From: Nereocystis luetkeana
Taxonomy: Eukaryota > Sar > Phaeophyceae > Laminariales > Laminariaceae
Reading direction: 5' to 3'
Assembly: GCA_031213475.1 (NCBI GenBank)
Contig: JARUPZ010000021.1
Coordinates: 4,502,438 to 4,566,437, forward strand
DNA: 64,000 nucleotides
Under the pieces are notes generated by a model. The model was not told where the DNA came from and searched no databases. It worked only from the letters and a program-made list of their open reading frames with translations. Shown here one piece after another: positions 844 to 62,596 of this stretch. Made by a program: the position numbers and the translations under genes. Numbering within the stretch: position 1 is the stretch's first letter; every line of letters starts with the position of its first letter.

Positions 844-3800
844 TGCGTGGACGAAGTCGTCGCAGCCGCCACCGACTCGCGGGCGCTGTCAGCCTTCCTC
901 TCGTGTGGGAACCACCGCAACCCGGCGGTCCGCGCTAAATCCGCTCTGGCGACTCTCCTGTGCGTGCGCCGACGGTGTGCTGCCGCCGCCGTGACTGCGA
1001 AGTCGTCGGCGTCAGCTCGTAGGGGTGACGATTGGGGTGGGGGGGGAGGAGGAGACGGTGGTGGTGCGAGGAAAGGGAACAGGGGGGGTGTGGGGGTGGG
1101 TGCTAGGGAAATGGACAGGGTGCTGTCTACGCTGCCGAGGTTCTTGCAGGCAAGTGGTGTGTGCGATTGTTCTATGTACGAAGTGGTGGTGGAGCGTTTA
1201 TTCATTTTTTATTTTCCCAGCAGAGAGGGTCAAGGGCCAATGTCGGTTGACGGTCTAATTGGTAATAGGTGTGACCCGTCAAGGTCTCTTAGTACACTGT
1301 TTCTAGTGTGCGGAGTTCCTTGACGGCTGTCCGTCATCCCAGTCAAAGCCTCTATACATACCAGGTACTAGTTTTAGCGTGAATGTTTCCTTGACGGCTG
1401 TCCGTCAAGTCCGACAAGGGTTGACGGCTGTCTGTCAAGAGAAAACATCGGTGTCAACCTGCGTTTCTTGTCAAGAGGTGTCGTAAAATTAGGAACCACG
1501 ACACCGGTATCGCCAATAGCCGTAACAAACGTATGCTCACACCTGGTATATGTCACTATCTATGTATTTTCAAGTTACACCTACCAAACCTACCCGACGT
1601 GCCCTGCCCCAGCATTGCAGGGGTGTGACGGCCTATGGACATATGAGTACGCCCTCGCCCATTTACCGCCGTAGGACGGCTTTTCAATGTCCTGGCACCT
1701 GTTCGTCGTGGCCAAACGGTTTTTGCCGCGTAACCTGTTTGCCTCGTAGAAGGGGAACCGATTCGTAACCGTTTTCGCCGTGCGCTTTCCTGCTTTCGTT
1801 TTTTTGTAGGACGGGAACCAGGAAACGCGGCAGCACGCTAAGGCTCTCGTGGCCCTGCTCCTTGAATCGGTGAGAACTATCAAACTCCTCCAGCCAACAA
1901 ATCGCATCGTCCGCACAAGGGTCCTTCCTGCTGTAGTATATATATATAATATTATACCTGGTACTGGTATATATTAATGAAACAAAAAACACCGCAACTG
2001 CTGTGAGACCCATCTTTGGAAAAGTCATCTTTACAAGCTGTCTGCAATGATTCGGTCGTGCGTTTCGTAGGGACCTCACCGCGTGTCAAGCCTGTCTTTC
2101 GGCGACTCTCCTGGCTGATGCTACCTCAGAACCCTGCTAACTTTGAAGCCAACAAATTTAGAAGCCCACCAGGGACAAATTTAGAAGCCTGCGGCACCAA
2201 TCTAGAAACCTGTTTACCAGGTACACCTGTACCACATCTCCAAAGGTATATAGAAACTTACATACAATTAAGTGGCCTCTAAGTGCCGGTAAATATGCGC
2301 CAGCCAACAGCAATACCGGCACTATATATATATAGCGTCAGCCCGCACTATATGTTCCGCACACTGCGACACTGGTGTATCCCGTCTGTGCCGAGCGATG
2401 TCAAAGGCACTATAGCGGGCAGGACGGCACTATACGTAGAGGGCCCACTACTGCTGTAGTGAAAAGCCTGACTACACATCCGGACGCCCTCCAACGTTAA
2501 CCTCGATCGGACTGGACTACTGCGAAGTGCGGGTCTGCAGCCTATCGTATCAACCTGTTGCGAGACAACCACCACTTCTCCCCCGAGCGCGCGATATGCA
2601 CCTGCCGCAAACCTGTCACGGGTGGGCATATGTAGTAAGAATCGGAACCCACGATGGACCCAAACACCATGTGTCCCCTTAAGATTTACACATCATACTT
2701 GATTCTGAATGTTATGTTCCCCCATAAGAGTAAGGAACAGGGGTGGTGGTCCACGCTCGATTTCGTATTTTGAGAATGGGTGCATTCTGCGCTGAGTTCA
2801 GCATGATGACTCTTGCATTTCTTATTTTAGTGTTAATCTCTCAGCCTGGATTTCTTACAACTTCCGCGTGACGGCTCTCAAGTTTCCTATTTTAGTGTAA
2901 ACTTTTCAGCCTGATTTTCTCACGAGTTCGGCAAAATGGCTCTCGATTCTCTTGATTTAGTGCAAACCTCGGCCCGGCTTTCTGATAACTTCAGCGTAAT
3001 GGCTCTCGAATTTCTTATTTCAGTGGAACCCTCGGTCTGGCTTGATCAAACTTCAGCAGAATGGCTCTCGAATTTCTTACTTTGGTGTAAACCTCGTCCT
3101 GGTTTTATCAGAACTTCAGCATAACGGCTCTCGAAATTTCGTTTTGTAGTGCAAACCTCAGACTTGGCTTTAATACAACTTTCAGCAGCGGCTCTCGAAT
3201 ATATTGTTCTGCTGTATATCCCAGCCAGGCGCTATTGTGTTGTGCTCGTTTTTTCGTTACGGAGGGGGTGTACGAAGTAATCAGAACCCACTGCGGGCCC
3301 AGAAACCATGTACCAGGCATCCCTTTGTTATATGTTTAAACGCCACATTTGGTTCTAATTATTACCTTATGTACCCCCGTAAAACAGTAGGTGTGGCCTG
3401 TACTGCTGTACACCGTCCTCCAGGAATTAGAAGAGTGTTCAGGGTCATCCAGCTTTCTGGTATGTTCCGCACGGCAGGCACGTTTAGCACCACTCCCGGA
3501 CAGTACAGAGGTGTTCAAGCTAAACCTACCGCACGAATTTCGTCCACTATTCCACCCTACACCCTAACACAGTGCCTGTTCCGCGCGGCACACAAATCCG
3601 TTCGTCCACCACTACTTTCTAAACAAACTTTCTGCTCCGCACGGCACGCACGCGTGTTTATCCGCCACTCACTATTCCTTCCCCCCCGCGATCGTTCGCC
3701 CCCCCCCCCAACCACCCCAACCCTCGTCCCCACCCTGCCCCCCCCCCCCGCCTCCCCCCTCTGGCTGCTCCTGGTGAAACAAAACAAAAACTCCAAATCC

Positions 3801-6800: not shown

Positions 6801-9800
6801 GCAGGGCGGTCTTCAAGTGGGCACCCCACTGTTTATCGAAAATTTCGATACGATAGCCGACACAATTATCGTATGTCGCTTTCTGGAAGCAGGGGTCAGG
6901 ACGAGGACCCAACGAACGGAGATCGAGCTCGCCCCCCCGAGGCCACGCCGGGACGAAGAAACGACCGAAGGCGTTTTTTTGTCGAGAGGCGGAGCTGCTG
7001 CCGGCGGTGTTTGCGAATCTCGATTCGGGCGACTGGAGGGAGCGAGTGAAAGGGCTCGAGAACGTGAGATCGATTGTAACCGTGCCACAAGGGGTTCTTA
7101 TTCGTCGTCACGTTAAGGTCCCTGTGGAACAGAGGGAGTGTTGGTGTTGGTGTGGTTGGTGTTGGTGTTGGTATTGCTGTTACTGTTGTTGGTGTTGGTG
7201 TTGGTGTTGTTGCTGCCGCTGCTGCTGCTGCTGCTGCTGTTGTCATTCTTGTTGTCGTTGTTGTTGTCGGTGCTGTTGGTGCTGTTCCCATTGCCATTGT
7301 CATGGTTGCTGTTACTGTTGCTACTGTGTTGACAGTGTTGCGGCTCATACCTCGGGAATTAACTGCTGACGTGCGGAACCCTGACACCACCCGCACGATG
7401 AAGTTCATGGGGGAAATCACCTTCTTCCCCTTGCACGCAACAAATGCTTGGGTGCATTGTAGCCTGCATCGCACGGATCAAGAGAAAAAGTCAGACCGGA
7501 TCAATACCATTGGCCTTACTACAGAGGACGGCGTTGCATGAAGCTGAATATTTAATATTCACTCTGGCCGATAATGGCCTGAAATATAATCCCCGTTTGA
7601 TTTGCCGGGAATTTAACCCCCCCGAACTTTATAGATAGGTTGGGTTGGCGTCGGTTGGCAACGACTCTGCAAAACACGCCGCTCACTATTCGAGCTAGAC
7701 AACCAGGTCATCTTTTTCGTTTCTTCGGCGGTCGGTCACAGCTGGTGGTCGAGTTGAATCATTTGAGCGGGGTGGAGAGCCTTCACTCAGCACAAGGGGA
7801 ATTATCGTATCACCTAGTGGATATGTTCCGTCACCCATGAGGATGTTACATAGTACTCACATTGCTGTCTCTGGCAGTGGCCACACCTCAAATTAAATTA
7901 ACTCGCTGAAGCTGTCGTCCATGTGCAAGTCCACCTCACAAGCGGTTCTTAGTAGGATGAAACTCATCCTTGATGCGACTTGGCGAACACTTCACGGCGC
8001 TTCGCGCTTGGTTCAAGCAATGTCTGCCTGGTCGGTGAAAACTCGACGTGCTCCGTCCCGGTATTGTAGGGATGCGAGGGCCCATGGTCATCCGACTACG
8101 GCCATGCATGATATCGAGTACACTCCTTCCCCGTTTGGACTCTCATGTGGACACCAAAAGGTCAATTGTATTCCCGGCCACATCTGGTCGGGAAAGTTGA
8201 CGGGAATATATTTCCCGGCCCGCTTGGGCTCTCATTCGAATATCAAACGGGTGTTATAGTCCGGGTCAGCGTGGTCGGGAATATACTCCCCCCCGTTTGG
8301 CCTCTCCATGTCCATAAATACGGCCAAGAATGATTACTATCTCCAGAAACATGAGTTGTAACCACCTACCCATCCCTCCACCCACCCGCCTAACAACCAA
8401 CCCACTCTATACTTACGTACGTACAGGCGACCGCCCTGCTGGAGGATCACGGGAACGAGCTGCACGCGGTGGGAAAGTCGGCCCGTCTCGTCGATCGCAT
8501 GTCGGAGCTGCTTGCGGACGGGAACCTGAAGGTGAAGGGGGGGGGGGTGCTTTTTCATGGAGGCGTGCTATGGTAGGGTTACGCAACATATTTCGACCAA
8601 CATCGTGTGCCTCGGAGGTGAAAAACTAACTATTGATACAAAATGGTGTACCCAGTTTAAGGCCCTCCGGTTTAAGGCTTTGGAGTAGATGCGTAAGATC
8701 AGGTGTATCGGCTTGTCCCGACAAAGAAAAAAACACTATATGAATTAGTATGGGGTTATTTTTTCAGTAACAAAAGATAAGACCTACACGGAGATGAGAT
8801 CAACCTAAAGTGCCTTCCTTCCCGACGTGGTCTTGAAATGGGTATATCGCTGTAATAATAATAATAGCTTGAACCATTACTGATTCAACATTTTTTTGGC
8901 GTTGGATCATACCTGGTAGGCTTGTGTCCATGTGCCAAGCGGGGACGGTGTGGTCCACGGGGGTGGCGACTAATGGAATCTCTCTTGAACTAGCATGAAT
9001 CAACATCGAAAACGTCTTTTCTCTCTTTCAAGATATCTAGATATGCTGCTTCCCGCGACCCTTTAGCTCGGCTGAAGCCGTTTTCGCCGCCGGTTTCGAT
9101 ATTACAATAGGGTTGTCGGCAAATCATTAGGTGGGGTTGGGTTTCTCGTAGTCTGTTTCCTATGTAATAACGGTATGTAGCAGTCGAAACCCACGAAAAA
9201 TCAATTGCTGTGTGGGGAAAAGTGACCAAAATGACGCACTGTAAAGCAGGCATCGCTGGTCTGGGTAAACTCTACATCACTCTGTGGGTTGGCTATCAAT
9301 AGGAAACGGGACAGTTTCTGATTGGCTACGTAGTGCTTGCGGGTTCACCTTGTTTAAACCAATCAGCTTTCCTCATGTTTGTCGGTTTCAACTATTAATA
9401 CAATATTTTCATATCCCATCAACCTGGACTATCGCAAACACCCTATTTTTTTAAAAGAGGGGGCTATACTTGACGGAGAAACTACCCAATACCGTTGTTG
9501 TACATACCGTTTGTACTGTATGCCAGAAAAACCACAAGAACAGACCTAGCCTAGGCCTATCCATCGGCGGCGGGCAGTCCCGTGCCGTCTGCTCGTGTTA
9601 TACAGTACCCGTACCAGGGTATAACAAGTAAAATAGAATACCCCCAGGGATGATTTTCAGAATTCTACTTACTCCCTGGGTAATAATTATCATGCCCTAG
9701 TCGTACCACCATAGACCCTCGCATCCCTACAATGCCGGGACGGAGCACGTCGGATTTCCACCGATCAGGCAGACATTACTTGCACCCAGCGCATGGGGGG

Positions 9801-12800
9801 GGGGGGGCACTCGATAGATCGTGCATGGCCGTAGTCGTATGACCTTAGACCCTCGCATCCTGTCGAGACCTTTCCCCATAAACGCGTCGCTCGGCGTTGA
9901 CCCTTCCGGGACTGCAGTCCCAATGTGAGGACAAACCACTCTAATTCTAAGTAATTTGTCCCCGAAACGGGACTGCAGTTCTAAAAGGGTTAACACTCTC
10001 CTCGTTGTCGGGAACATCAGCTCCGAATTTTTCATTCGAGGGGGGCGCGTTACCCTGCGTGTTACACAAGTACGCTACGATGTGCTGTACCTGGTAGTGT
10101 TTTACGTGTACGGTTCGTGGTATACCTCCAGCAGTAGACCAAGCGATTGCTCATCAGGTTTTAGTTTTTAGTTTTCATCTCCAAAAACAGATTTTGGGTG
10201 AGGTGTATAAATGAAGCCCCTTATGTGAGGGGAGGAGCCTCAGAAAATGTCAGGTGCAACCCTACCTTAGTACGCGCCTCATTCTTACGTGCGCAGATGT
10301 ATATATCTATACAAGTTCTCCCTTCGGAATGGCATGAGCGTAGCGTGTAAGACTCTCTTGTCGAAATACGCATTCGGTTATTAATGGTTAGGTTTGAACT
10401 ATTCCACCAATAATTGGAGTTATGTGCTGCAATTGGGACAATAGCTGCAATGTACCTGTTGGCAACCAAATATTTATTAGGATAAGGAAAATAGGAGTGG
10501 AAGATGCAGATGAGAGTGATGCAAGAGAGCACTTCTAATGTCCGAAGAAACAGGTAGTATTTATGTAGTACAGTTGCTATGAGACATGAAGGCGGCATGA
10601 GCGTGATATGTAACTACTACAACAAGCACTTCTTCAACGAACCGGAGCAATACATATATATACCAGATAGGAGCCGGCGGCCCCAGTGGCTTGGTAGGTG
10701 GTCCGCGCGCCTACTAAGATCGATTTCGTGGGTTCGATTCTCACCGAGTGCATACACCTAGGGACTTTTTGGGTGCATGAAAATTGATTAGCGGAAAGCG
10801 CGAGAGCATATTCGATGAAAGCCGACGAGCAGTGGGAATGCTGAACCCTATGCGCGATAAAAATAAAGGCACGTACCGGGGGGAGAAAGGGACGACACCT
10901 GTGACCACGGCTTGTCCAGAAGAAGGCCGCTGAGGGTAACGCCTGCTGCGAGTAAAGATGGAGAGTATAAGCCACACAAATACAACGGAATACATCAGTA
11001 ATACGTACCAGGAATATGTATAAAATATCTGGTATATTTTAGGGACTGAAAGGGTCCTCTCCGCCCCAGTGGCGCATCGTCCGTACTTTGGATTTAGCAG
11101 CTCGCCCGAACGAATTACGGATTACGGGCATGAGGTGCATTGTAATAAGCATATATGAGCCGTCAACACTATATCCTACTGCGGGTAATACTCTTTGAGC
11201 ACTCCGGTCGACATATTAGCTGTATTGGGTTAGCATTATATGCCAGGTACATACATACAAGGGCTTGCGTCTAACGACGCCCGCTCATTAAAGCGAGCCC
11301 CTAGGCCTTGGTATTGGTGGGTGTGGAAGGACGGGCGTGCGCAGACAGATACACGATGAGCGAATGCCGAGCACTACCACCGGGGTTGCATCTGGGCGTC
11401 GCACATAGGGGGCGCTATGTGCTGGATGGGTGGGTGGGTGGATGAGGAACATACGCATGATCATTCTGCACACTTGTAGTTGCTATGATACCAGGTACGT
11501 ATTTACACATACGCTGCACATGGCATGTGGTGCAGCTAGAATAGAAGGCCTCCAGCATACGAATACGACATTATATGGCAAGAGTAATCATACGTAGAAA
11601 AAGGGACCGCGGAGAACGAAAGGCGGGGGCTCTAGAGCGCTTCTGCATGTCTTGGAACGTTGCGGTGAAGGCACCGACCGAACGAATGCCGTGCGTCGCA
11701 GGGATGAATCTCACCTAAACGATAAAGTTAGGTATTATTATTCCGGCTAGCAACAGCCTCTCCACGTATGGTTGTGCTCGTCATACAGAAGTACGATCGG
11801 TCGTACCCAGTACGATGATTTGGCGTCGCATCGTCTACTCTCTTTACTGCATTACACTGTTGTATCTCTGTGGTGCGGCTTTGTTACTAAAATAGCTTGC
11901 AGCTCTATATAATAGGATTGAAGAATCGGCACGGACACTGGTTGTGCTGGATGTCGACGGGTAGAAAGAACCGTTGAATGTGAAGAAAACACAACATACG
12001 CTCACGTGAGACCGCTATACATGCCCCCCCGAGACAACGGAGCATAACGTGTACCTCGTCCGCCGCCACGCGCGCGCGCTCTGCGCTTTATGCGCGCTCT
12101 GCCCCCCGTCCGCGCGCGCGAAGGTGAACCTTCACGCCCTGGACAGCGTGGTCCGGGTGGCATCTATGATGGGGGACAAGCTGGAGCCAGTCGCCAACAC
12201 GCTCGTACCAGCCGTTTGCAAGAATCTCGCCTCGTCGAACCAGCAGGTGTGACAGGGACCCCCACGTAACGAACATGCACCTCCGCAAAGAGTATACGAA
12301 ACATATTTTTTCCGCCCTCACTGCACCTATTTTGAAGGCCTAAACAGCGGGGGGGGGGGGGGGGGGGGGGGGCGTACTCATTTGTTGTTTGCCTTAGTCA
12401 TTTGACCATTGACCACGCATCCCTTTCGAGACGGAGCACCGTTCCTACTCCTAATAGAGACACCTCCCACAATTGGGCGCTCATTACGTTGTTTCCATAT
12501 ATTACTCAGAAACTTTTTGCTAATCTTATCCCCTTCCTGTTTGGCCGCCTGTGGCCACCATCTGTCTCCTAGGACAGCGATTGTTTTCTAGCGCGCGTGG
12601 GGGGGGGGGGGGGGTGAATTCATGTCAGGCATGACCGTAGTCGTACGACCATATAACTTCGCATCCCTACGATGCCGGTGGTATGGATATGTTTTTACGG
12701 ATCCCACCCGGCAACATGAGCTATTACCGGGGGCCGTAGTAATAGGACCACATATTGTGAAAAAAGGTAAATATATAGGTTTTTGTGTGTACGGTAGGTC

Positions 12801-16762: not shown

Positions 16763-18629
16763 CACCGAAAAAATTAGAGCGGCAGGGGCGGTTTGATCAA
16801 CCCCGTGATAGAGCTTCACCCCCCCCATTTCTGGGGCAATGTGCCTGTGTTTAGGGATGTGGGATACTTGTTGTAGCTGTGTTAAAAAGGACCGGCTCCG
16901 AGACACAGCGATGTATGGCACCGACCTGTTAGGTGTGTGCTGTGTTTGCGGGGGGCCGACGACCGACCACACGGCTAGTTTTTGCGATAGGGCTTCATTA
17001 AAATACTACTGTATCCTCCGTCATCGAGAAGGCCTCCCTGATGTGTTGTTGATACCGTTGTACCTACGGTGGTAACTGGTAACAACGGATATACATCGCA
17101 CACGACTTCTTTCCTCCTCCTGCTGAGGAACTGTGATACGCACCCGTGGGGATGATAGATACGTACACGTTTTTTTTTTCCCTTCTGGTGTGATGTATAT
17201 ACGATTAATCTCCTCCTGGTGTTTGCTCGTACTACTGTTGTTGTTCTATTCTTATCGATAAAATAATCTATGAAATCGTCCGTGGTCATTGGAGAGGCTC
17301 GCAAAACTTCTCGAGGAGTTGAAGAATACCTCAGGACAAAATTGCACGCGCACGAATATTTGCTTACTGGTTTAGCTCTGCACGCACAATGCTTCTTCCT
17401 GGGCTTACTGTATATCAGGTACACGTACGCGGTGTATCGGGTACCACTCTGAGCGAAGAATTAAGGACCGTTTCACGTTCATATTTATGTTCCAACACTC
17501 ATCATATTTTCCTTTCAGGGTGGTACTTGGGACGTGCCAGGGATGTCTTTGGATGACTGTGCGTCCGCCGTTTCTGCTACAGTAGTTTTATGATGGCACG
17601 GCTTTCCTAGTATACTGGCAGAACCTCACTCACTCGGGATATGACGTCTACAGACGACTGGTTGTTGAGGTTCTCCTCATGTTTCGGCCAGCTGAAATCG
17701 ATCATTTCTCATATAGCTATAAAATGCTACCAGGTAGGTCTGAATACGAAGCAAATCATACACGTACGCTCTGCCCTGTTGCCGCACCACTACCTCCCAG
17801 CCACCACACCAATTTCCCCACGATAGCGCTGGCATGAAAAAAATAACAGCCCACCTACTTTTTACCCTATGCCGGGGTACGCCGCATCGCTAACTTATTG
17901 TGCTGCTAGCGCGGTGGCAATCGAACAGAAAAACCGCGAATAGGCGCACACGCATTTGACAGTGCCCCTGGCTTTCCAGCCGAAATCAATTGAACGATCA
18001 ACCAATCCCATCAATTCATCATCAATAACAAATCAATCCACCCATCCATCCATCAATACTCAGTATATCATCAATTCAGATGTTTTCGTCAATCAATCAA
18101 TGAATCAACGCCATCTGACAATGTGCAGCATGAGCTTCAATGTTGATCACTCCTAAACATTAACATTCCCCAAAAGAAGTAAACCGAGGGGAACCGATGC
18201 GAGAAAGGAAACCTACAGCATGCGAAAAGCCAAAATTATTTTACGTGCCTACTTCCGGCGTAGCCTCCGTCTACTTTCAATTGCTGTATTTACTCCTCTA
18301 GTCTCAATACATGATCGTCTACCTTCTACTCTTGAAATCCTAAGCCACGTCCAGGCTCCATCCCCACCCGATCGGCGTGGGTCTGTCCCCCCCCCCTTCC
18401 CCCCCCAGCCTCCTTCTTGCTTCTTGGCGACCCCTAAGCTGGAGCTTGAATGAAGTGCGAGACCCTCCGCGAAAGCCGAACTGTGTGGCCACCGAGACGA
18501 CTTTCAGTGGAGGCGTTCCTTCAACACTTCCTTTTCTCCCCGTCGACCCTCCCCCCCCCCTCCCCCCACAACGCTTACCGCCAACAAAGTCGATGGGTGT
18601 GAGCTACCCTCTACCCAGAGGGAGGGGGG
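16763..18629. other. Intergenic region TOG gene - retroelement
   Basis: No supported gene. It has an (ATCA/ATCC)n-rich patch (about 17990-18110), a family G copy (18115-18200) and C runs near 18395 and 18550. Confidence 0.5.
18115..18200 (+). repeat. Family G repeat
   Basis: AATGTGCAGCATGAGCTTCA, GTTGATCACTC and ACATTCCCCAAAAGAAG match copies at 33095, 50235, 50385, 53470 and the array at 56590. Confidence 0.8.
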
Positions 18630-20482: not shown

Positions 20483-23400
20483 GCAGCAGGTGACTACGTA
20501 CCGAACCAGCTTTCCTCGAAGTGTGGCGGAGGGTAGTGTGTAGTGTACCTATTGACAGGTCGGTATATCAGCAGTACTTAGCCCTTGAGCTATGATACCT
20601 ATGTAATGGCCAAGACTACTCTGCCTGTTATGGTTGTGTGCGGCCGTTATTGGTCATTGCGTACGGCTGATCATTACTCATCATGACAATGGATGCCGAG
20701 GGTTTCACGTCCACATCGATCATGCCGGCAGCAAGGAGGCTTGATGATCCTGCTGGTACGAGCACCCACGACTACCTGTAAACAGCAGCAGTAGTACGCT
20801 GCTTGCTATGCTGAAGCGCGGACATTCCTGACCATGGCTCACGGCTGGTTTTGACGATGGGTGTCGATGTTCCAGAGCTACTGCAGTAGCAATGCAGTAC
20901 GAGTATGATAGGTGATGGGCGTACCGCGCGGCCGGGTTTTCACGTTTTCACCATGTACATTTCGTCTAATTTTCGACCTCCAAAGCACATATCGGACAGA
21001 TCAGATCACCGCTGCCCAGATATATCACTCATTTTTTTTGCTGATCTGCATCATCCGTACTCGTACCAGGTACAATCTGCCAAAGGGCTGATCTATGTAC
21101 AGGATCCGAGCGATCTGTACATGTTTCCGCAGTGGTGTGATCATGTCAAAATATCGGGCTTAATTATGTGCACCCGGCTTTGTGTGCCCGTTGTACTCTG
21201 ATCTGGCACGATCTGTGTACGTACGACTCACGAGAGCGTCTACAAACTACTTTACAAACGCTGGTTTTATTAATTTGTTTTGTCGTTGTGGTCGCTTCTT
21301 GCCTCTGTTTTCTGTCTTTCTGTATGTTCTTACTGTACAATACGAGCTGGTTCCAGCAAGATGCCCTGAGAATGAAGAAAACAAAAATGACAAAGGCAAA
21401 TACTCAGTTTTTTTACGGTCCCATTAAGAACAACCGTGCCAAGTTTCGTGTTTCAACTCTCAAAAACCAGAAGGCAATGTTCCGGAGCCGAAACCTTCGG
21501 CGGGTCGCTGGAACCAGGTCGTAGCCTTTCTTCATTTGTATCAGTTACACATGCGTATTTGTTTACCAGGTATTTGTATTTCGTGTGCCCGAGTTCGGAA
21601 AATCAAGAGTGGCTTTTGCCAGGTGTTTTTACGGACAAGAATGGTGCGAGAGCGTGCCAGAAAATTCGCGCGGTGCTGCGTGTTCCTCCAGCCTGAACCA
21701 GGGAGTTAGTTATAGCGGTTCGGGGAGATGCAGTCTTCAAGACGCAAAAAAACGATCCGGGAGAGGAGCACCCCCCCCCTCTCCCCACCACTCTCGCTCT
21801 CACTCATCCATCTCCCAAGTAAGCTTTCCAGCTCGCTAGCCATCGCACGCCTCTCAACCTCGAGATACCTGCGGTAGTTCTTGGGCGCCTGGATGTCAAC
21901 CTCCTCATCGTCAGTCGTGGTCTCCAACGTCCTCCAAGGAACTGGCCTCGTGGCCATGGAGCATATATAACCCGTACGCGACGAGCTAAAGAATTGAGGT
22001 GGCACCTTCTTGCGCGAAGGGTGCGGGAAAATTCTCAAGAAGAGCGTCTGGGTCATCCCGACGCCAGCGGAAGAGCAGGCCCGCACGGGGCGCGAAGGCG
22101 CCAAAGAAGGGAGCGAATGGTTTATTTTCCGAATTCGGGGAGACGAAAATATTTTGGTGTTCCCTTCTTTTCTTTCGCCCTGTGTCTTTCGTGTTTGGCA
22201 CGAAATTGAGTAGGAAGCGCCACACATCCGTTCGGTAAGTGGCGGTCAAGGGAATGGGGAGGGGGGGGGGGGGGGGGAACCGTCGTAGGGAAACCGCGGT
22301 TGACGAAAGCAGGAACGAGACGGCAGACAGGGTAGAGGTACCAGACCGACTAAGTAGAACCTGTCTGGGCTACTCGTACCACGAACTGCTGCGGCTACCT
22401 GCGGGGGGGCTCTTGTTGTGCTCCGGTTTGCCTGTCGTTTCCTTTCGTTCTTAGTCTTACTGTGTGTGTTATCTGTTGCTGTAGTTCTTGTCCGTCTCGT
22501 TTGTTTTGTATTGGTCGTCACATCTACAAGGGGGAGCACCACACTTTTTTTTGTATTTGTTCTCCTCTGTTTCGTTTTTTTTTTCTCTCATTCAACGCAG
22601 GCTAGAATGTGGTGCCTGTCGTATGCAGTACAACAACATGGCATTGCGTTGTCTACTCCGCTTACTGCATTACGATGTGGCACTGCCGTACCTCTGTGTT
22701 GTATTTTCATGGCCACAGAGCTTGCATCTCTTCAGGACTGAAGAATCGGCACGGACACTGGTTGTTGTGCTGGATGTCGACGGGTAGAAATAACGGTTTC
22801 ATACGAAGGTCACACACACGCACGTTTCGATGTGATCATATGCAGAATACGTACAATGCGTGTCCCAACCCACTGATCTGTTCGACCTAATTCAGGAAGG
22901 TCCTACAGTAATTTTGTACGTGTACAACATTCCGTCTTTGGCAATTGATCGCTCTTTCCCGCCGTTCTACCCTCGATACCGTTGACGACAGCAGCAGCAA
23001 CAACAACAGCAGCAGGAACAGCAGGAGCAGGAGCAACAGACGCCGCCAATGCCGCCACCACCGCCCCTACCACCGGCACCCACGCCGCCGCCTCAAGTGC
23101 GGGTTGTGCTCCAGAATGTGACGGCTTCCGTGAGCATGCGAATAGTCATCGACCCCGCCTCCGTGGCCAACAAGATCAGGAACGCCGAGTACAACCCCAA
23201 GAAACTGCCTGCTTGCGTGAGTCTTTTTTTGTTCTGCGTGTACTCTACTTCGCGGCCGCCGCCGCCGCCACCACCACCACCACTCACCCTTCCGTGGTTG
23301 TCCGAATGCGATAATGACCGCAAGCCTGCGTTTTACCGGGTGTACTCGGGTAGTGCCGGGGGTACGTTTATGATCGTTTAGGACTTTTAGGACTGCAGTC

Positions 23401-26400
23401 CCGTTTTGGGTGCAAACCACTCAAATTTGAAGCAGATGGTCCCCAAAACGGGACTGCAGTCCTAACAGTCCCAAAAGGGTTGAAAGCGCAGCTATTAATA
23501 CCATGCGCGTACTACGGTGCAGGGGTGCACCCTGAACTCTCTGAGGTTCCTCGCTCGATTGTAGTGTAGAAGTTCTCTCACCGCCCAAAAACGCACGAAA
23601 GACAGACCCCCAAGATAGATAATCCCACGACCTGGCAACGTTTGGCGGGTATGAAACGAATGCCTGGTATATGTCAACGCCACAGTAACGGTATTTTCAG
23701 CGACACTAGGTGCTTCCTCGGTGCCTTCAAGGGTGGCCGTCGGTCGGAAGTGTCTTGGCCCTTGGCCCACAATGGTACGGTACGGGCCCGCCAACGACAA
23801 ACTCCTCATCTGGGACGCCATCTTCACACAACCTTGAGCATAGCATATAATGTAGGATTTAGTCTAGAGTTCACCACTGAGCCGTTTTTTTCTTTAGCCG
23901 ATTTTCTTAGGGGAGACCCAAAAGTGGGCACTATGTTCTTTATTGGACACTTTCTTATTGGCGGGCCTGTTCTGTGTAGCGTTATCTCCCTCGCAGCACG
24001 CGTGTCATCGTAATCGTATGCGCTGCATGCGGCGGTAGCACTGAACCCACCCTCCCTTTCCCTTTGGGATGCCGCTGTGATGCGACGAACGGACCTCTAC
24101 CCCAGAGCCGTTGGTGTACCACCCTGTCTCGAAACGTAAGGGCAGTTTGTATGTTCATTTTTTAGTCCCAAAAGGTCCTTGAATTTTGGGACAAGAGAGG
24201 TTCTACGGGGGGCCATAGTAAATAGGACCTACGGTACACACAAACACCTATATATTTACCTATTTTTACTAGCATTATTTGGTCCTATTTAATATGCCCC
24301 CCCGTGAATGGGTGTTTTTGGCTACAGCAGCGCACCAGTAGCCGGTAACTAGCCTTGTAGCCTCTTACCGGGTCACTGGTGGGTCACGGCATCTTCTACA
24401 GCAGGCAGGCGCATTTCGCAGGCCTATCTGGTCGAGTACAGCACGGAGTGCTATTAAAGCGCTGACAAGATCAGGTCATCGCTTCCCACTGTTCACGATC
24501 TAGATATTCCAAGGCAGATCCGCTCCCGGTATTGTAATGTCTGGTTTACGATGAAGCTCATGTCGCCGGCGGGTGGGACCCGTAAAATCCGTATGATCTA
24601 CAGTACGTAACGCAAGTTTCCTGGGTTGGATCTGTTCTATATACTCGTATGCAGATTATGCACAACCTCTTCACAGCGGCAGGTGAGGAACTGATATAGA
24701 TGATCTATCTGTAGATCACGATCTGTGGATGATCAGTTCGAGGTGTGCAAGAGTACTATGAGCTGCATCGCAGCGCCGGCGCCGCTAGTGTATTCGTGAC
24801 GCCGTGACTGCCTTGTGCCCGCCCGACAGGTTATGCGAATACGAGAGCCGCAGGCTACCGGCCTCCTGTTCCAGTCGGGCAAGCTGGTGGTGACAGGGGC
24901 TACGGGCATCGAAGCTGCGAGGGAAGCGGCGCAAAAGTTCGTCGCCGTGGTGGAAAGCTTGGGGCTGAAGCCTTCTTTCGCGTGAGTCACGAGGCTAGTC
25001 GGTGAACTGCAGGTCGTACGGTAGTGGCCCCTCTATAGTGCCGGTTGAGTTACTGCCGGCGTGCCCGCTACAGTGCCTGTGGAGTCGTTTGGCACAGATG
25101 AGACCCACCAGTGTGGCAGTTACGTGTGCGGAGTTGGGCCGGCCGCTATATATATAGTGTCGGTGTTGTTGGCTGGCGCGTGTACCTGCAATGTAGCGGG
25201 ACCACCGCTGTAACCTTCTCCCAGCGCTCGGACCACTACAAGGAGGGTGGGTGGTGAGTGGTGTTGGTGGTGATATGTGGCAAGTGCTATTACGGGGGAC
25301 CGTAGTAAATAGGATCAAATATTGTGAGTAAAAATACGTGAATGTACAGTTTTTTTTGTGTGTACTGCAGGTCCTATACTATGGCCCCCCGTAATAGTAC
25401 GATGGGTGTAGATCCTGATCCTGTCAATATTGTTTTCCTGGGTCTCCTCCTCACTTGAGGAAGTCTTGTGCCTCCATACCTGCAGTAGGCTTTGAGAAAC
25501 CATACGATCGCAACCCGATGGCCTGTACAGGTACACAACGAACAGCATGTACCAGGCGAAGCACAAATAGTGTCCTGACGATATTGGGTACCAGCCACCT
25601 AGTTGAGGAGGTACGGCAGTCACGAATGACTTTAGGCCAGAAATTGCCACACCCTTCGTAACACGCGCCTGGCGGGTGGTGGTGGTGGTGGCAGTAGCGG
25701 AGGGTGGTGGTGGTCTGATTCTGGCTGGTGTGCTCTCGCCGCCGGAGCAGATCGATGAGACAGCTTAGACGTAACCGCAGACTCTACGTATTCATAAATT
25801 GCTACCTGGTTAACTTACACTTCAATACCCTGTTTTTATTTATTTATTTCTACCTGGTAGTAGCTTAGCCTTCCAGCTTTCACGGCAGACGTTTCAACGT
25901 GGAAAATTCAAGAAAGGAAATATTCGCGTACCGCAGTGCAGGTATACCTCGTACCTGGTCTAACCCTCGAGCGACGGCGAAACACGTCGTATATGAAGCT
26001 GAGGCGGTGGAAACGTGGTCGTAGTTCTAAAGGGGATCAGCAGCAAGCAATAGCTACAACTAAAGCGGCTACAACACAATTTCTTGTCCTTGCGTACCGA
26101 TGGCGCGCTGATCGTTCCGCGATGATCCCTCCCCCTTGTATGCCGCGCCGCTACCGCTGCTGCACGTTGTCGGGCGGTGCCTCCCTTATCATTCTTGCCA
26201 GAAACTTTGCCATACAGAACATGGTGGCCACGGCAGAGATGGACTACGGGATCAACCTCGAGCTCATGGTGTACTCGCACGCAAGGTTCGAGGATGGGAG
26301 AGGGCGGCTGTGTACCGTCAAAGCGAGAAAACAGAAGCAAGAACAAGGAACAAGAAACAGCGCCGACGATGTCGACAACTACTGCACGTTAGGGTTGAAA

Positions 26401-36170: not shown

Positions 36171-36427
36171 CTTACGCACTCGTACAAGCAGTTAATAGTA
36201 TTAATATTATTATAGTGGTACTGGAAGATGCGACTCGCCAGCGCAAGGGGAGGCGCAAGCATGTATTCTGGGTTCGAATTCGAATCTCGAGAGTCAAGAA
36301 CCAGTTACAAGCACGTGTACGAGTATTCACAATCCTCTTTTTGATGACGAATGTGAAAAGTGCCCTATGATAGGTATAAATATGATTATTTGATACTTCG
36401 ATCTGATCGAATCTAACGTACCAGGTA

Positions 36428-36524: not shown

Positions 36525-36675
36525 GAAGCGGCCTATATAGGCAGCTCTGTCGTATCGTATCATATTCTACGAAATTACGTATCATAAACGGTACCTGGTA
36601 CCTACTACTGTAGTATGCAGGTACGTCGTACAGAATTAACGGTGGTACTGACATCAATACGTGTATTTATTAGTA

Positions 36676-37300: not shown

Positions 37301-37327
37301 TAAGAAATTCCTACCAGGTATCAAGTT

Positions 37328-37794: not shown

Positions 37795-37965
37795 GGTATT
37801 TTCACCCCTTGACAGACAGCAGCGTTGCCTTGACATGCCTTGACTGACACCAAAATTCTACCAGGTAGGTTTTAGCGTGGAACACTCCGCGCTACACCCT
37901 TGACGGCGCACTTTGTTTTCTTGCTTGACATGTGTCCTGATATCTTTGTCTACAACCGCCGGCCG
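37795..37965 (+). repeat. Family N repeat, second copy
   Basis: CCTTGACAGACAGCAGCG, TACCAGGTAGGTTTTAGCG and CCTTGACGGCGCAC correspond to blocks of 1315-1480. Confidence 0.45.
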
Positions 37966-47700: not shown

Positions 47701-48011
47701 GCGGCGTCCATGGCGCAACGGGCGACCTCTACGTATTATTACGGAGTTGGTCTTCAGGGAGGGGTCGCCCATTTTGTTTTTGCATGTATGTATCTGTTCA
47801 CCACCGTGCGAGATGCACGCACAGAACGGCGTCGTACTATATGATAGTAGTACAGACATGGCATTCGGCATGCGTGCGTGACGAAGCCTACATACATAAT
47901 GCCAGGTAATAAATACTAATACCAGGTACGTAGGAGCTGGCGAGAGGTTCTCCATGTGAAGCATGACTCTTCCACAGCCTAAGATTTACCTTTCTTACCA
48001 ACCCACCGGAG

Positions 48012-48044
48012 GATATATATATATATATATATATATACCTGGTA
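48012..48044 (+). repeat. (TA)n ending in TACCTGGTA
   Basis: A TA dinucleotide run of about 13 units is directly followed by CCTGGTA. Confidence 0.95.
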
Positions 48045-48264: not shown

Positions 48265-49534
48265 CTATGTGTTGTGATGCTTCTTTTGCCCTCGGCCATG
48301 CGAATGAACGCGAATATTACCCCCCCCCCCCCCGGTGTTCACATAATGCATGGCGAATGACGGGCGACCTCTACATAAATATATTGCGGAGTTGATCAGG
48401 AATTAATTGTCTAACATTTTTTTTGTAAAAATATTTCATTGTCCAACACAATGCAGATGAAAGCGCATAATAACTTCACGATTCGACCTCATTACTATTG
48501 AGTAATAGAAGGGTGGGATCAAGGTAAGTCTGTGTGGTACAACGGAAATTATTTGACGGACGAAAACCGGAATAACGTAGCAGGGTATTGATGCACAGGG
48601 CGAAGCCTTTTCAACTCCAAGAATATCTACAAAAATATCTACAAAAAATACAAAACGTGCACAACAACGTGGGGACAGACTTCATTCAGTAAAACACTTC
48701 GAGACACCACAAGCAATAAGATGTACCAGGTAGGAGTTTTGCGCTGAAAGGGGAGTCGTTCGATGTGTGTCGTCGGAAGAAGAGCAGGGGGGGTCACAAC
48801 TGCAAGAATGTTGTATTAATAAGGGCCCGTCCTAGTGAGCGAAAAAAAAATCACACCTCGAACAGATCATCGATCCCCACACAGTTCATGATCTACTAAT
48901 AGATCGCCCACGGTTGTCAGCCCAGAGTCTGCGGCGGATTACGCATCTCCCGATAGCTATATCTCCCGAGGACGGGTCTACACCGTCAATGACGTGAGAC
49001 CGCTCGTGACCCGAGGTTTGATATTGCTTGTCCGGTGACGTGTCCTTCGCGCATGCGTGTTACGAGATCTACGATATCTCCGACCCTGGCTTCCATATCA
49101 GGGCAGATAGATTCGACCCCTGGTCCGTACCTGGAATGCATGTGTGATCTAACTCTTCTCATATGAGAAGAGTTTGATCACACACCGTGTTGTCGCGTGC
49201 GAGAGTGAGTAGGTTTAGCAGTCTGGGAGAAGGGATATTTAGGGATGCTTTTTACTTGAAAAATGCGTAGCTTGGTCTGCACTTCGGAATCGTCGTCCGC
49301 ATCTGAGAAATTTCCTTGTTCGATGCAAAGTCGGCGTAGCCGCGTTTATGGCGAGTTTTGGCCCGTTTTGGCTGCGGTTTGGGGTCAGGGTTAGGGTTGG
49401 AGTCGGGGTTGGGTTGTGGGTCTTCGCCCGAACCTTGATCCCAACAGGAACCAAAACATCCGAACAGCCTACCAACCTAAAGATCCCTTCTCCCAGATTG
49501 TTAAAGGTCCTCGTATGCATGTTCTCCATGATTT

Positions 49535-53130: not shown

Positions 53131-55670
53131 CACCCCCGGCGTCCGCGACATATATAAAACCCCTGACATTAACCCTTAACCCCCCCGTATGCCGCCAGAA
53201 CGTTTTCCCACATCCAGGCAGGCAGTCATGCAGTAACGCATTTCACACACGGTGAGGATACACACAACATTCAGACGCCATCAGGCCGAGATGAGCTCTC
53301 CTAGACCAAACACACTCATGTGAGTGAACCCCGACATGAACAAACACACCGAAGGAAGAAAACTGAAGCTCACCATGCTTGGACAAACTCAACAATAGCA
53401 ATACAATCAGCAGCAACAAAAACAACGGGAAAACAAAAACTAAGGATTCTGTTTTGCACGACCGACAACGTGCAGCGAGCGGCATGAGCTTCAACGTTGA
53501 TCACTCATAAAACATGCCTCCACGAAAAAAGAAAAAATAACGCCAAAGAAAGGGGAAACGAAAAAAAGGCAATCTATATTATAAACGACTCACACTCCAC
53601 TCTGTACCCTAACCTACTGCAGAAACAACTTAGGAGTTGTGCGTAAAAGGATAAACACCAATCTGCTCCACTTGCTGCCGCCGTTACCCTGTCCTCATCC
53701 CGATATACGTTCATCTATCTTCCAGTAACAAATGCTTGGGGGGGGGGGAAATGAGTGCCGTTGTAGGTACGTACGTAACGTATAGCCTCTCGCTGTTTTG
53801 TTTCTGGTGCACAAACACGATAAAACATCGGCACGCCTTAAACAAACTCCAGAGACGAAAATCGGAGAGCGCCGATAAACGTTACCACTCTGTCCCGTAA
53901 TATCAATATCATTTGCATACTCATAATTCATCGCAAAGTTTCTTATTCCGGGACAGAACGGTACGTTGTTAGGTTCTCGGTAGTATATAATTCAACCAAG
54001 ACCCCCCCCCCCCCCCCCCACGAAACGGAATATATTATATCCTCCTTAGGAGTTCCACTCACATTCATTCGCTAAACAATCAAGACGCTTTTTCCCACCG
54101 TCCCCGGCCATGGTTAGGCGGGGAAATATATATATATATATATAAAATACACACACGCCAACTTATAAACATTGTCGGATGGGAAAAAAATACCTGGTAC
54201 ATACATGAACCAGGTACGTACGGTACGTCAAAAAAAGAAATTAATCAATATTGGCCTTCCGACAAGTGTCCGGCTCAAATCTCCTCTATCACTCATACAC
54301 CTCCCCTCCCTGAGTTACACAGCGCACATTTTATTATCTCCAACAAGGGGTAAATACCCTGGATGATTTTGTGAAAAAATCCGTATCATACGTATTGCGC
54401 GGGATAGAAGTGTCACACGCGGCTTGGAAACACGGGTGTCGGCGAAAACCTCGATCTCACAGACGGTGGGTTTATTAAAGAAACAAACATGTCGCGTACC
54501 CTGGTACATAAATATCCACATTGTAACCAGTAGGAAAAACGAGACACACGAAACTAAAAAACGAATAGGGACGCCATGTTCTACATGATACGTTGTCTAG
54601 AAAAAAAACTTACACTCACATTATTTACACCTACCTGCCTTTGATTATCACGGCAAAAACATCTAGGCGACACCAACACCCACACTCTAACCAACAAAAA
54701 TGGCCTACACAATACCTAAAAAACGTAAGCCCACATACACACACTAAAAAAAAAATACTGTCGGGGACGAACATAACCCTTTAAGGCCAAACAACCCTCT
54801 CTCAACATTTGCTACTCAACCCAGGGCATAATACAGCACTATTAAAAGGCCAACAACATCACTCCTCAATCAATGGACAAAATAAAAACGAAAATCAAAC
54901 AACCCAACGACAGCAACAGCAGCAACATCGCTCCTCCAACCAAGCAACCAATGAAACAACGATCACAAAAAAATGGAAGAAAACAAAACGGACAAAAACG
55001 TGTTCAAGAGCCCATGCCGGGATGCTAGCCCCGCGCGAGCGTCTCCACAGTAGCCAAGCTGGCTGCCTCGTCCATGCACGTATCCCCCCCCCCCCGTCCG
55101 TCCGTCTTCTGCTCCTGAGGGGTCAAGAGGGCGTGAGAGGAAAAAAGTTCCACAGGTCGAAGAGATGACATAAATCAGATTGATCAGAGATCCCCGCTTC
55201 TTAGGGCTGGACGCTGACTGACTCCGTCGGTAGCGATTACTCACACTGTCGTCAAATTCAGTCAGTACACTGGATTACAGCAGCGTACTGCTTGTTGTCT
55301 CCCCTCTCGACTCTACTCCTCCCGAAACGCATTCACTGTAGAGGGTCTCCGTACTATTTAATGTAATGTTGCGTGTTTCTTGGGCGTGCGCGATATAAAA
55401 ATAATTGGCGAATATACTGGCCAGGTTAATCAATAGATTACCACTGCCAGTAGATGACCAGTGCCAGTAGATTACCACTGCCAGTACATACTGTGCCGGT
55501 GCCCAGCCCTACCACTTGACGCCTCGTACAGATCAGACCCCCCCTTTCACAAATCGTGCACACCCGATCACCATTTTACAGATCGGACGCGTGCTAGTAC
55601 ATATTATAGGTACATGCCACTTTTCTGGCTAAACTATTTCCCTGAATGGCAGGGCAGCCTTTTTATTGAA
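53131..55670. other. A/C-rich intergenic stretch
   Basis: A family G copy (53470-53570), a C run (54001-54018), (TA)n (54128-54146) and long AAC/ACA-rich sequence (54590-54990). ORFs here are low complexity. Confidence 0.5.
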
Positions 55671-57195: not shown

Positions 57196-57305
57196 ATTAC
57201 GGGGGGGCATAGTTAATAGGACCAAATATTGTTAGTTATAAATAGCGAAATATGTAGGATTTTGTGTGTAGCGTAGGTCCTATTTACCATGCTCCCCCGT
57301 AGTAG
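57196..57305 (+). repeat. Family B palindromic MITE
   Basis: ATTACGGGGGGGCATAGTTA and CATGCTCCCCCGTAGTAG arms. Confidence 0.9.
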
Positions 57306-57415
57306 TTCAATTGCTGTCCTTGCTCCTTCCTTCCCATACCATGCTCCTCTACCTTCAACGACTATCACTACTACTGCTACTACTACTGACTTCACTAATA
57401 CTACTATTACTACTA

Positions 57416-57538
57416 TCACGGGGGGCCATATTAAATAGGACCTACGGTGCACACAAAAACCTACCTGGTACATATTTCGCTGTTTGTACTATTAATAATA
57501 ATATTTGATCTTTTTGCCTATGTTCCCCCGTAATACTA
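57416..57538 (-). repeat. Family B MITE carrying CCTGGTA insertion
   Basis: CACGGGGGGCCATATTAAAT and CCTATGTTCCCCCGTAATAC arms. TACCTGGTA at 57462-57470 replaces a single TA of the consensus. Confidence 0.9.
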
Positions 57539-58659
57539 TTGCTGCTAACCTACTACAACTGTTGATTGACCAGTCATCTCTGATGGTCAGAGTTGTAACA
57601 TTTTCTGCCTACGACTGACAGAAGCTCATGAGAAATTCCGTCTGATACATACTGGTACACTCTGTTCTGTACACCAACCTTACACGGTAGGGCTGGGCAC
57701 TGGCACAGTATGTACTGCCAGAGCAATCTGCTGGTACCAAGTAAGTATCTACTGATTTAGCCGGCCAGTGGATGCTGCCAGAATAATTGATACCACGCAC
57801 GCCGAAGAAACACGCCACGTTATACGACGGAAACCCATCGAAAAGCGTTTCGAAAGGAGAGCGGAGACTGGAGAGGGGGAGGAGGGGAGTCTTGTGCTTT
57901 CTTTTGCGCTTCCTCTGCTGGTGAGGGTCTACTACCCTGTATCGCAAGGGGAGGATCGATCGATCAACTTCAAAATGGATAGTAAACGTACGCAGTGTTT
58001 TACGATGCACCTGCACGACGACCATGACAGTATATACTGGTGCAACCCAGCATACTGATTGCTGACGGTCAGTATGCCATCTACCGGTATACCAGGTACA
58101 CTGTGATAGTTTTATTTCCCATCTGACAATGTATAGTGTTTGTTCCAATCCTACCATCCGCACAAAAAAGGGAATCCAGAATTCAACGACTACAGCCATA
58201 GATGTTACCATCAGACCTGAGTACTTGACGAAACTAGAACCAAGAACGTAAACCTCCTTGATAAAAAAATATCTGCGGCAATCACTTCTGCCCCCCCCTT
58301 TCCCAAGTCCCTCGATGTCATAATGTATTGAGGCTGCCAGTACCCAGCCCTACTTTTGAGGCTTAAGATCGAAAAGGCTACTAAAAAATGACGATTTGGG
58401 TCATATAAGGTCATAGCGGGGCAGGGTTAGACAACTGTTCTGCACACCAGATTTAGTGGCTTGAAAGCAAGGAAGGCGCTCGAAAATAACGACTCGAGAG
58501 CGTAAAAGGCGTTGAGAAGAAGAAAAGAAAAAGATTCTGAGAGGGGGGGGAAAAAAAGGCATTCACAAATGACGACTTGAGAGCGCAAAAGGCGCTCAGA
58601 AAATTACAAATTTGAGAGCAAAAACAGGCATTTCAAAAGCAGTTTATCAACAGAAGCAT

Positions 58660-58800: not shown

Positions 58801-58803
58801 ACT

Positions 58804-59883
58804 ACTACGAGGGACCATATTATATACCTGGTAGGACCTACGGTACACACACAAACCTATACTTCGTATATTTCGCTATTTTACCAGGGCTTTTCGCGGG
58901 TCATGACCCGACCCGCGGGTCGGGTCACACGGTGTTCAAAATGTCACGGGTCGGGTCGGGTCGGGTCCTAAAGTGTTCAAAATCTCACGGGTCGGGTCGG
59001 GTCAAGAGGTTTTCAAATCTCGTGGGTCGGGTGAGGTCGGGTCAAGAGTTTTTCAAATCTCACGGGTCGAATCGGTCGGGTCAAGAGATGATGAAAATCT
59101 CACGGGTCGGGTCAGGTCATGACCCGCGAGAAGCGGGTCACTCGCGGATCCGGCCAGCATGACCCGCGAGTTGTTTTCTACTGACCCGCGGGTCGGATCC
59201 GCGCATTCGGCTCGCGGATCCGACACTTGGATCACTTGCCGCTCCCTTACTCAAAGGCTTCTCTTGTACCAATACTCAATAATACTCCTTTGATATCATA
59301 TTAAAACCTTATGACATCACCAAAATCATATACGCATGCCCACATCCATTCATACCCACTACAGCCAGGTCAAATATCGCTGAGGGGTACTAAAATGAGC
59401 GTCTATTGTTTTTGAAGTGCCGCCCCGCGGGCTGGGTCCGCGGGTCGAACCTTCGGGTCAAGATAAATGGTTCCGCGGTTCAAGGTGACCCGACCCGCAT
59501 GAAACCCGTGTCTCACGGGTCAATCAAAAGATGGCGGGTCGGGTCGGGTCGGGTCGGGGGTCGAGTCAGGAGGTTCTGAAATCTCGCGGGTCGGGTCGGG
59601 TAGGGTCGGGTCAGGAGATTTTCAAATATCACGAGTAGGTTCGGGTCAGGAGATTTTCAAATCTCACGAGTCGGGTCGGGTCGGGTCAAGAGGCCTTCAA
59701 AATTTCGCGAGTCGGGTCGGGTCAGGTCAACATACCTCAAAATTTTCGCGGGTCAGGTCGGGTCAGCTGACCCAATCCGACCCGACCCGACCCGACCCGA
59801 CCCATGAGGTTTGACCTGACCCGCAAAAAGCCCTGAATTTTACAAACAATACTTGGTCCTATTTACTATGGCCCCCCGTAATA
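58804..59883 (-). repeat. Family B MITE split by a hAT-like insertion
   Basis: The left part 58804-58884 and right part 59844-59883 together make one complete B element (CTACGAGGGACCATAT ... ATGGCCCCCCGTAATAG). The left part also contains TACCTGGTA at 58825. Confidence 0.92.
58885..59835. mobile_element. hAT-like non-autonomous element (951 bp), GGGTC-rich
   Basis: Termini are CAGGGCTTTTCGCGGGTCA and TGACCCGCAAAAAGCCCTG. The flanks are TATTTTAC and AATTTTAC, an 8-bp target duplication with one mismatch, as expected for hAT transposons. The interior is mostly irregular tandem CGGGTCGGGT with phase changes, and there is no transposase ORF. Confidence 0.8.
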
Positions 59884-61990: not shown

Positions 61991-62021
61991 TATGGAGGAA
62001 AAAGAGATTAAAATTATGAAA

Positions 62022-62092: not shown

Positions 62093-62596
62093 TATATCCC
62101 ATTTTTCACTCAATTTACAAATTGTATGCTAAGCCCTTCGCGCGTATGATGTAATAGGTGTTTCCTTGTCAAGGATATAGGCCAGTGGCTCGCCTGGATG
62201 CTACCCGGGTCAACACGACTCTTAAAAAAAAAAGTGACTATAGACGTCAGCGGTTGATGCTATTACCAGGTACCAGGTATTATTCAAGCTTCGACGATAG
62301 TTCACCCTTACCGGGTTAAAAATTACGAACAGGACGACACGAGCGGGCCACCACACAAATATAAAACCTGCATACCAGGTGTAACGGAGTAGTCCCTTGC
62401 TATGACGCTGCTTATCAACCTTTCTGTTCCTGCCTTCCTATGACACCCTTTCTTTCTGTTTGGTCAACTGTCGCTCACCATATAGACCGGGGTCGGCGAA
62501 ACCGACAGGCAGGTAGGTAGGTGTAGTCGCCGCCCTCTGTGAAAGGCAGAAGACGCAGAAGAATCCGTTTTCACCAGTTGTTCTCGTTAGTGGCGC

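Follow-up and report, generated by a model that had tools for sequence, protein, structure and literature searches.

The stretch of DNA analyzed here, hereafter the window, comprises 64,000 nucleotides of the Nereocystis luetkeana genome (positions 4,502,438-4,566,437 of contig C21) and is interspersed with the nine-base word TACCWGGTA, i.e., CCWGG between two TA dinucleotides (Table 1). A reading of the sequence alone had listed 34 exact copies, about 70 times the roughly 0.5 expected. Every one of these positions is an exact match, and two further ones at 8910 and 10088 had been missed, bringing the number to 36. Expectation is 0.57 from 100 dinucleotide-preserving shuffles (sd 0.88; largest 4), and a first-order Markov model puts it at 0.53, such that the excess amounts to ~63- to 68-fold. 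A further 62 copies lie in twenty 10-kb stretches taken from contigs C1-C19, which together with the window make up our 264-kb sample. In the complete genome (465 Mb, 1,987 contigs) there are 182,395, as compared with 1,744 for the reversed pattern (~105-fold); the genome-wide density of 0.39 per kb compares with 0.56 for the window and 0.31 for the twenty stretches. When words seen at least 20 times in the 264 kb are ranked, with repeats of one to three bases excluded, TACCWGGTA is the most over-represented 9-mer (98 seen versus 1.7 expected), and CCWGG leads the TA-N5-TA strings with 56-fold excess, the runner-up class GGACC reaching 17-fold. Very likely, these words are scars, passed on by inheritance, that a TA-targeting cut-and-paste transposon left on excision. 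The explanation in which we have high confidence is such a footprint, from a transposon that is probably of the IS630-Tc1-mariner (ITm) type, while membership of a named family is not established.

Insertion at TA and target preference

Homologous copies of the sites reveal their empty state. Each site was collapsed to one TA with its own flanks and matched against the 264 kb, and a copy was regarded as empty if it was ungapped, retained the TA and was alike in at least 17 of 22 bases. Of the 89 scar runs with full flanks, in which neighbouring tandem sites count as one, 18 have a homologous copy spanning the site. Empty copies exist for 8 of these 18 but for only 18 of the 233 control sites with copies (Fisher p = 1e-4), the controls having been drawn from 980 TA-N5-TA sites. 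In total, 109 copies over the 18 sites are empty, 10 are scarred and 8 carry another 7-bp insert, while the remaining copies are otherwise gapped (72), ungapped but less alike (35) or poor (10). Other 7-bp inserts at TA seen in this comparison are CTTCG, CTCCG and CTTAA. The eight sites with empty copies are not independent, three residing in one tandem array and one in low-complexity sequence, and some of the control matches resemble decayed or other scars (TACCAGATA, TACGAGGTA, TACTTCGTA, TACTCCGTA). Indels of 3-14 bp between repeats, which were not selected by sequence, point in the same direction: 37 of 190 are TA-duplicating inserts, among which CCAGG/CCTGG is the commonest (6), followed by CAG (4) and by TTAA, C and A (3 each). 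Half of the seven-base indels (11/22) duplicate TA.

Genome-wide comparison is possible at a single position within MITE A, a miniature inverted-repeat transposable element. The hot spot AAAACC-TA-YATATTT is empty in 5,954 + 5,966 = 11,920 places genome-wide and present in the scarred form AAAACC-TACCNGGTA-YATATTT in 754 + 749 = 1,503 places, i.e., in 11.2% of hot-spot places. Reversed-pattern controls for both forms gave 0 or 1 matches, and mean occupancy in the 264 kb is 98 scar sites per 14,593 TA dinucleotides. A derived insertion is furthermore apparent in a segmental duplication which was found as a three-fold shared hot-spot continuation. Locus L027 shares 97% identity with L028 and 91% with L029, and L028 alone contains CATACCCTGGTAGC where the two others have CATAGC. 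The gain is a sister scar at TA, TACCCTGGTA with the core CCCTGG, and represents a derived 8-bp insertion with duplicated TA. TA insertion with duplication of the TA, as is characteristic of an ITm scar, is thus seen for CCWGG in repeat copies and for CCCTGG in paralogues. What has been inserted is a unit of 7 bp, CCWGG together with the duplicated TA, and TACCWGGTA is not a conserved site. The proposal made from the sequence alone, an excision scar at TA, finds strong support in the empty repeat copies, the derived paralogue insertion and the minority joins CCATGG and CCA described below.

The flanks had been held to be mostly unrelated beyond the outer TA. This applies from +9 to +12, where 180 flanks exhibit no bias, but not closer to the core. 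Compared with all TA flanks in the 264 kb, the outward preference on both sides is YNWNTTW and thus palindromic, Y at +1, T at +5/+6 and W at +7 being favoured and G at +3 avoided (lowest p, 8e-17, at +7; +2 and +8 weak with p ~0.02; +4 not significant). A local palindromic target preference around TA, here strong to +7, would be anticipated for an ITm scar. The scar itself partly satisfies this preference, which may explain the tandem double scars that make up 7 of 91 runs in the 264 kb. Next to the 98 exact sites, variants with one mismatch outside the centre exceed expectation by ~83, or ~10.6% per position, with similar decay at the outer TA and the inner CC/GG positions. Such decay suggests that the scars are inherited and either mixed or moderate in age.

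Joins, source and rival explanations

The same termini appear to have been joined in various ways. The variant-join pattern TACCNNGGTA occurs 28,845 times genome-wide, as against 4,918. The first 100 matches listed comprise CCAGGG/CCCTGG (34, eight of which stem from one cluster, C1:1304145-1308362, most at 528-bp spacing), CCTCGG/CCGAGG (16), CCCGGG (14), CCATGG (13), CCGGGG/CCCCGG (9) and others (14). In the 264 kb, TACCCTGGTA is present 10 times and TACCCGGGTA 12 times, with ~0.5 expected for each. Where the base after CCWGG at the hot spot is not T, CCAGGG is the commonest continuation among the matches listed, and CCAGGGG, CCATGG, CCAAGG and CCA-only joins are found there as well. Among the first 100 listed of the 1,503 scarred hot-spot places, read in fixed orientation, 64 have A at the centre, 33 have T and 3 have G or C, and the occurrence of both centres at one oriented target is as expected from an A:A mismatch repaired either way. 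The near-equality of A and T on the + strand (48:49) was discarded as evidence because strand symmetry dictates it, leaving the oriented hot-spot count as the informative one.

We infer the following course of events. The element would insert at TA and duplicate it, and staggered cuts upon excision would leave either flank with a short tail from the element's end, CCA or CCAGG. When the ends are joined, these tails may pair with an A:A mismatch in the middle, the repair of which to A or T would result in TA-CCWGG-TA. Slipped or incomplete joins would give rise to the minority forms, and the scars would afterwards decay via point mutation. In the original proposal, the overhangs would have three bases and overlap by a single A:A pair. 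Two 5'-CCA tails would yield CCWGG when overlapping via the last A and CCATGG when both are filled in, and the presence of CCATGG and of CCA alone agrees with this. Overhangs of five nucleotides, however, account no less well for CCWGG and CCAGGG/CCCTGG: two 5'-CCAGG tails paired in register would produce CCWGG with the central A:A mismatch and, slipped by one, CCAGGG, CCCTGG, CCCGGG or CCATGG. The 5-nt model predicts more of the observed joins, whereas the CCA-only scars favour short tails. Judged by the 2-3-nt 3' overhangs of ITm elements, CCATGG and CCA fit 3 nt, and CCAGGG/CCCTGG fit 5 nt. Taken together, variant joins, tandem doubles and the fading palindromic preference fit repair after cut-and-paste excision, and heterogeneous end-joining products from the same termini are present as they should be for an ITm scar, with CCTCGG/CCGAGG left unexplained.

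A near-palindromic core within a biased palindromic flank, the centre of which changes from W to C or G more rarely than other positions change, could also be viewed as a conserved protein-binding site, occupied by an abundant regulator, insulator or origin factor whose palindromic consensus extends beyond the core, an alternative already named in the sequence-only reading. Yet the core is not conserved in place with single-base changes. It is present or absent at TA as a whole 7-bp unit, which protein binding leaves unexplained, and the sister core behaves as an 8-bp unit in paralogues. Multi-base variants (CCAGGG, CCCTGG, CCATGG, CCCGGG) reside between the same TAs, and outer TA and inner CC/GG positions decay similarly, rendering a binding site very improbable. 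Some sites lie within MITE A or the tandem array at locus L005, as would be the case if the 9-mer were part of one or more repeat families and copied along with them. Within one family, however, the scar is the minority state (1,503 versus 11,920), and no base preference is shared beyond ~8 bp of flank, so that we find an origin by repeat copying hardly credible. Programmed DNA elimination would imply that germ-line elements were removed in the sequenced tissue and that only junctions were assembled, in line with the fact that no filled site was recognized among the listed hot-spot continuations. TA-bounded eliminated elements are known from ciliates. Excision in ciliates restores one TA, though, and the kelp scars bear point mutations at the outer and the CC/GG positions and, genome-wide, at the centre. 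Tandem doubles and a sister scar differing between paralogues are consistent with inherited scars, and the chances of DNA elimination appear slim.

Several observations weigh against an excision footprint of the ITm type. An element with CCA...TGG ends, as called for by the sequence-only reading, or with CCAGG...CCTGG ends was found neither in the 264 kb nor among the listed hot-spot continuations, a low copy number being possible. The search for TA-flanked inverted repeats in the 264 kb (12-mers with at most one mismatch, 24-6,000 bp apart) returned 494 pairs. Nine of them start with CCA or CCT, and all nine look like scar pairs or the interior of MITE A; for paired TACCWGG...CCWGGTA ends, nothing better emerged. 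At the hot spot, a shared continuation was sought after AAAACC-TA-CC, and no convincing shared element start was present among 100 of 344, 100 of 109, 100 of 642 and 100 of 104 listed continuations (the 104-set is a subset of the 344-set, and the 642-set has 272 reversed-control matches), which consist of scar variants, decay and single cases. Genome-wide, the models DDE_3 (Tc1) and Transposase_1 (mariner) had 0 matches each, with 30 and 3 candidates scored, and the suggested Tc1/mariner membership thus gains no support, although the silence of Transposase_1 means little because this model is silent in every control genome, too. Among the joins, neither overhang model predicts CCTCGG/CCGAGG (16 of the first 100 listed), TACCATGGTA is absent from the 264 kb, and the A:T ratio of 64:33 at the hot spot is uneven (p = 0.002), with the A excess unexplained. 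Finally, W-to-S changes at the centre affect 5.0% of W sites genome-wide, while other positions average ~10.6%, and centre C/G variants are near nil in the 264 kb (4 seen, 3.7 expected). The centre changes about half as often as other positions or less, and we leave this as a discrepancy.

Some candidates encountered in these searches deserve mention. One of the nine pairs starting with CCA or CCT, at window 35797-36598 (CCAGGTACC[C/G]TTT), agrees over ~13 bp, few bases beyond the scar word, and was taken as a chance match, given how many scar pairs there are. The two-fold start CCAGGTTTGAGT was rejected as an element, as the match spans only 23 bp. Two similar hot-spot starts, CCTGG-RTYTTCG-TATTTTT, were noted among the matches listed, and the listed continuations also include four variants of one repeat (TAGTAGTATTTTGGTGT) plus a neighbouring pair on C5.

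It is conceivable, if on the whole unlikely, that the scars stem from several unrelated TA elements with a common CCA end or from resident pogo-type elements. The genome contains 28 matches to DDE_1 (pogo-type), none of them linked to CCA ends, and other 7-bp TA inserts (CTTCG, CTCCG, CTTAA) do exist; still, a single sharply defined core dominates. Among the DDE_1 loci searched for TA-flanked inverted repeats (L021-L026 and L032-L038), clear cases are L032, L038 and L033/L034, whereas L035 is an inverted duplication and the remaining loci have weak or no pairs. The pogo-type candidates in L032 (3224-5831, CAGTGGGGGGCCC...) and L038 (1611-3584, CAGTACCGGCCCG...) have TA on both sides and CAG ends; the first adjoins TTCCAGGTA and the second directly adjoins TACCAGGTA. 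In L033, a TA-flanked stretch of 4,310 bp (619-4928) has the inverted ends CGCGACA[G/T]CACTTAAGAAT and a broken DDE_1 frame inside; L033 is identical to L034 over 6,979 bp. As the ends read CAG or CGCGACA and not CCA, these candidates were rejected, and none of them, in its present form, is the source of CCWGG. In locus L035, two DDE_1 frames lie within a near-perfect inverted duplication (1704-3591 and 5205-7092; 99.5% over 1,888 bp). For a pogo-like protein encoded at another locus, Ectocarpus sp. CCAP 1310/34 provides seven named relatives with 34-62% identity, and other matches range to 94%.

As a speculative and rather doubtful idea, the parent might be a transposon of a hit-and-run kind that hardly ever remains where it has inserted, or else a transposase working on elements of this kind, and scars would then exceed any residual copies by orders of magnitude. 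This could be due to very fast or developmental excision, to an extrachromosomal source or to recent extinction. The genome would then be an archive of ~200,000 or more excision events with little or no element left.

Scar positions and neighbouring inserts

Table 1. Scars and copies of MITE A in the window (positions counted from its first nucleotide).
Feature	Position	Strand	Remark
exact scar TACCAGGTA	1359..1367	.	exact match
exact scar TACCTGGTA	1955..1963	.	exact match
exact scar TACCAGGTA	2215..2223	.	exact match
exact scar TACCTGGTA	8910..8918	.	exact match; newly found
exact scar TACCTGGTA	10088..10096	.	exact match; newly found
exact scar TACCAGGTA	11489..11497	.	exact match
exact scar TACCAGGTA	17728..17736	.	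exact match
exact scar TACCAGGTA	21064..21072	.	exact match
exact scar TACCAGGTA	21564..21572	.	exact match
exact scar TACCTGGTA	25851..25859	.	exact match
exact scar TACCAGGTA	26632..26640	.	exact match
exact scar TACCAGGTA	28142..28150	.	exact match
exact scar TACCAGGTA	29444..29452	.	exact match
exact scar TACCAGGTA	31976..31984	.	exact match
exact scar TACCAGGTA	32930..32938	.	exact match
exact scar TACCTGGTA	33502..33510	.	exact match
exact scar TACCTGGTA	33820..33828	.	exact match
double scar TACCTGGTACCTGGTA	35450..35465	.	exact match; sites 35450 and 35457
exact scar TACCAGGTA	35472..35480	.	exact match; adjoins palindromic MITE end
exact scar TACCAGGTA	35739..35747	.	exact match
double scar TACCTGGTACCAGGTA	35788..35803	.	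exact match; unlike centres; sites 35788 and 35795
exact scar TACCAGGTA	36419..36427	.	exact match; adjoins palindromic MITE end
exact scar TACCTGGTA	36592..36600	.	exact match
exact scar TACCAGGTA	37312..37320	.	exact match
exact scar TACCAGGTA	37859..37867	.	exact match
exact scar TACCAGGTA	47920..47928	.	exact match
exact scar TACCTGGTA	48036..48044	.	exact match
exact scar TACCAGGTA	48724..48732	.	exact match
exact scar TACCTGGTA	54191..54199	.	exact match
MITE A copy with empty TA	57200..57306	-	control for scar at 57462
exact scar TACCTGGTA within MITE A copy	57462..57470	.	same TA empty in copy 57306-57200 (reverse)
exact scar TACCAGGTA	58090..58098	.	exact match
exact scar TACCTGGTA within MITE A copy	58825..58833	.	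same TA empty in 22 listed homologous copies
double scar TACCAGGTACCAGGTA	62264..62279	.	exact match; sites 62264 and 62271
MITE A copies	36059-36167; near 24203-24292, 49608-49827, 50730-50843, 51807-51912, 57200-57306, 57407-57533

MITE A is a short TA-flanked element of ~100 bp with the ends TTACGGGGG...CCCCCGTAA and is very abundant, its internal hot-spot word alone having 11,920 matches. TA-TTAA-TA inserts were noted at about 51524 in the window and near 8790 and 8850 in L005. The word CTATTAATAG occurs 30 times in the 264 kb (both strands) versus 0.33 expected, with three insert events among the repeat indels, and these inserts resemble a scar left by excision of MITE A itself. A second, palindromic element of ~90 bp, MITE C, has the ends (TTAA)CCCTTTTAG and resides at 35481-35570, 35839-35930 and 36428-36522 of the window. 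A CCWGG scar adjoins one end of the copies at 35481 and 36428, and a fragment, CCCTTTTA, follows the double scar at 35788.

Other TA-bounded words are in excess in the 264 kb (both strands), namely TACTTCGAAGTA (6, 254-fold), TACTCCGAGTA (12, 147-fold), TACAGCAGTA (30, 77-fold) and TACAGTA (94, 3.7-fold). Some may be scars of other elements and some microsatellite. Tandem arrays composed of TA-bounded words are located at 44047-44212 and 47299-47466 of the window (GTACGGCTAGTACCGTAC; TACCCGAGTACCCCAGAGTA). At G000:C1:21794862-21794896, telomere-like CCCTAA repeats immediately follow AAAACCTACCAGGCATATAA, ~75 kb from the contig end.

Relation to known systems

Individual transposon footprints are well known; in the genome sampled here, however, a single footprint ranks first among the 9-mers, simple repeats aside. 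Searches of the open-access literature with the exact scar strings retrieved no transposon paper as judged by title among the matches listed, and searches for footprint reports retrieved none describing such a genome by title or abstract shown. In Ectocarpus, Mariner-Tc1 elements form 17 families with almost 12,000 mostly non-autonomous copies, and Mariner-Tc1 is the named DNA-transposon superfamily with most families in the table of that study, the main text of which contains neither the word footprint nor the word excision (PMC12477816). Within the open-access literature searched, the kind of scar is known, while sequence, scale and missing parent seem to be new. Each scar would be an end-joining product at a defined break, and as a set the scars would therefore document how a brown alga naturally repairs double-strand breaks. 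Their presence or absence is also likely to serve as a marker that tells strains and species apart. An element or class known only by its absence would be missed by copy-based repeat annotation.

Members of the pogo superfamily (Passer, Tigger, Fot) duplicate TA in most families and are present in stramenopiles (PMC7386202), and Passer footprints measure 0-4 bp (PMC9976928). The DDE_1 genes of the kelp are reminiscent of this superfamily, but the TA-flanked candidates read in the kelp start with CAG or CGCGACA. Among mariner-type elements, one end of Mos1 terminates in CCA. Hsmar2 is reported to leave footprints of varying size (PMC3770610). The CCA-only scars at the kelp hot spot resemble the mariner type (Mos1, Hsmar2), whereas the main kelp product keeps bases attributable to both ends, and no Transposase_1 match accompanies it, which is a weak test. 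Sleeping Beauty integrates at TA with TA duplication and leaves a terminal CAG after joining of 3-nt 3' overhangs, its transposase, like those of mariner elements, nicking three nucleotides inside the element (PMC7827188, PMC8151067). From this system the kelp scars differ in that the core has 5 bp instead of 3, that no element was found and that there are ~180,000 of them. Still, the Sleeping Beauty footprint in its W form, TA-CWG-TA, is the direct analogue of TA-CCWGG-TA in the kelp.

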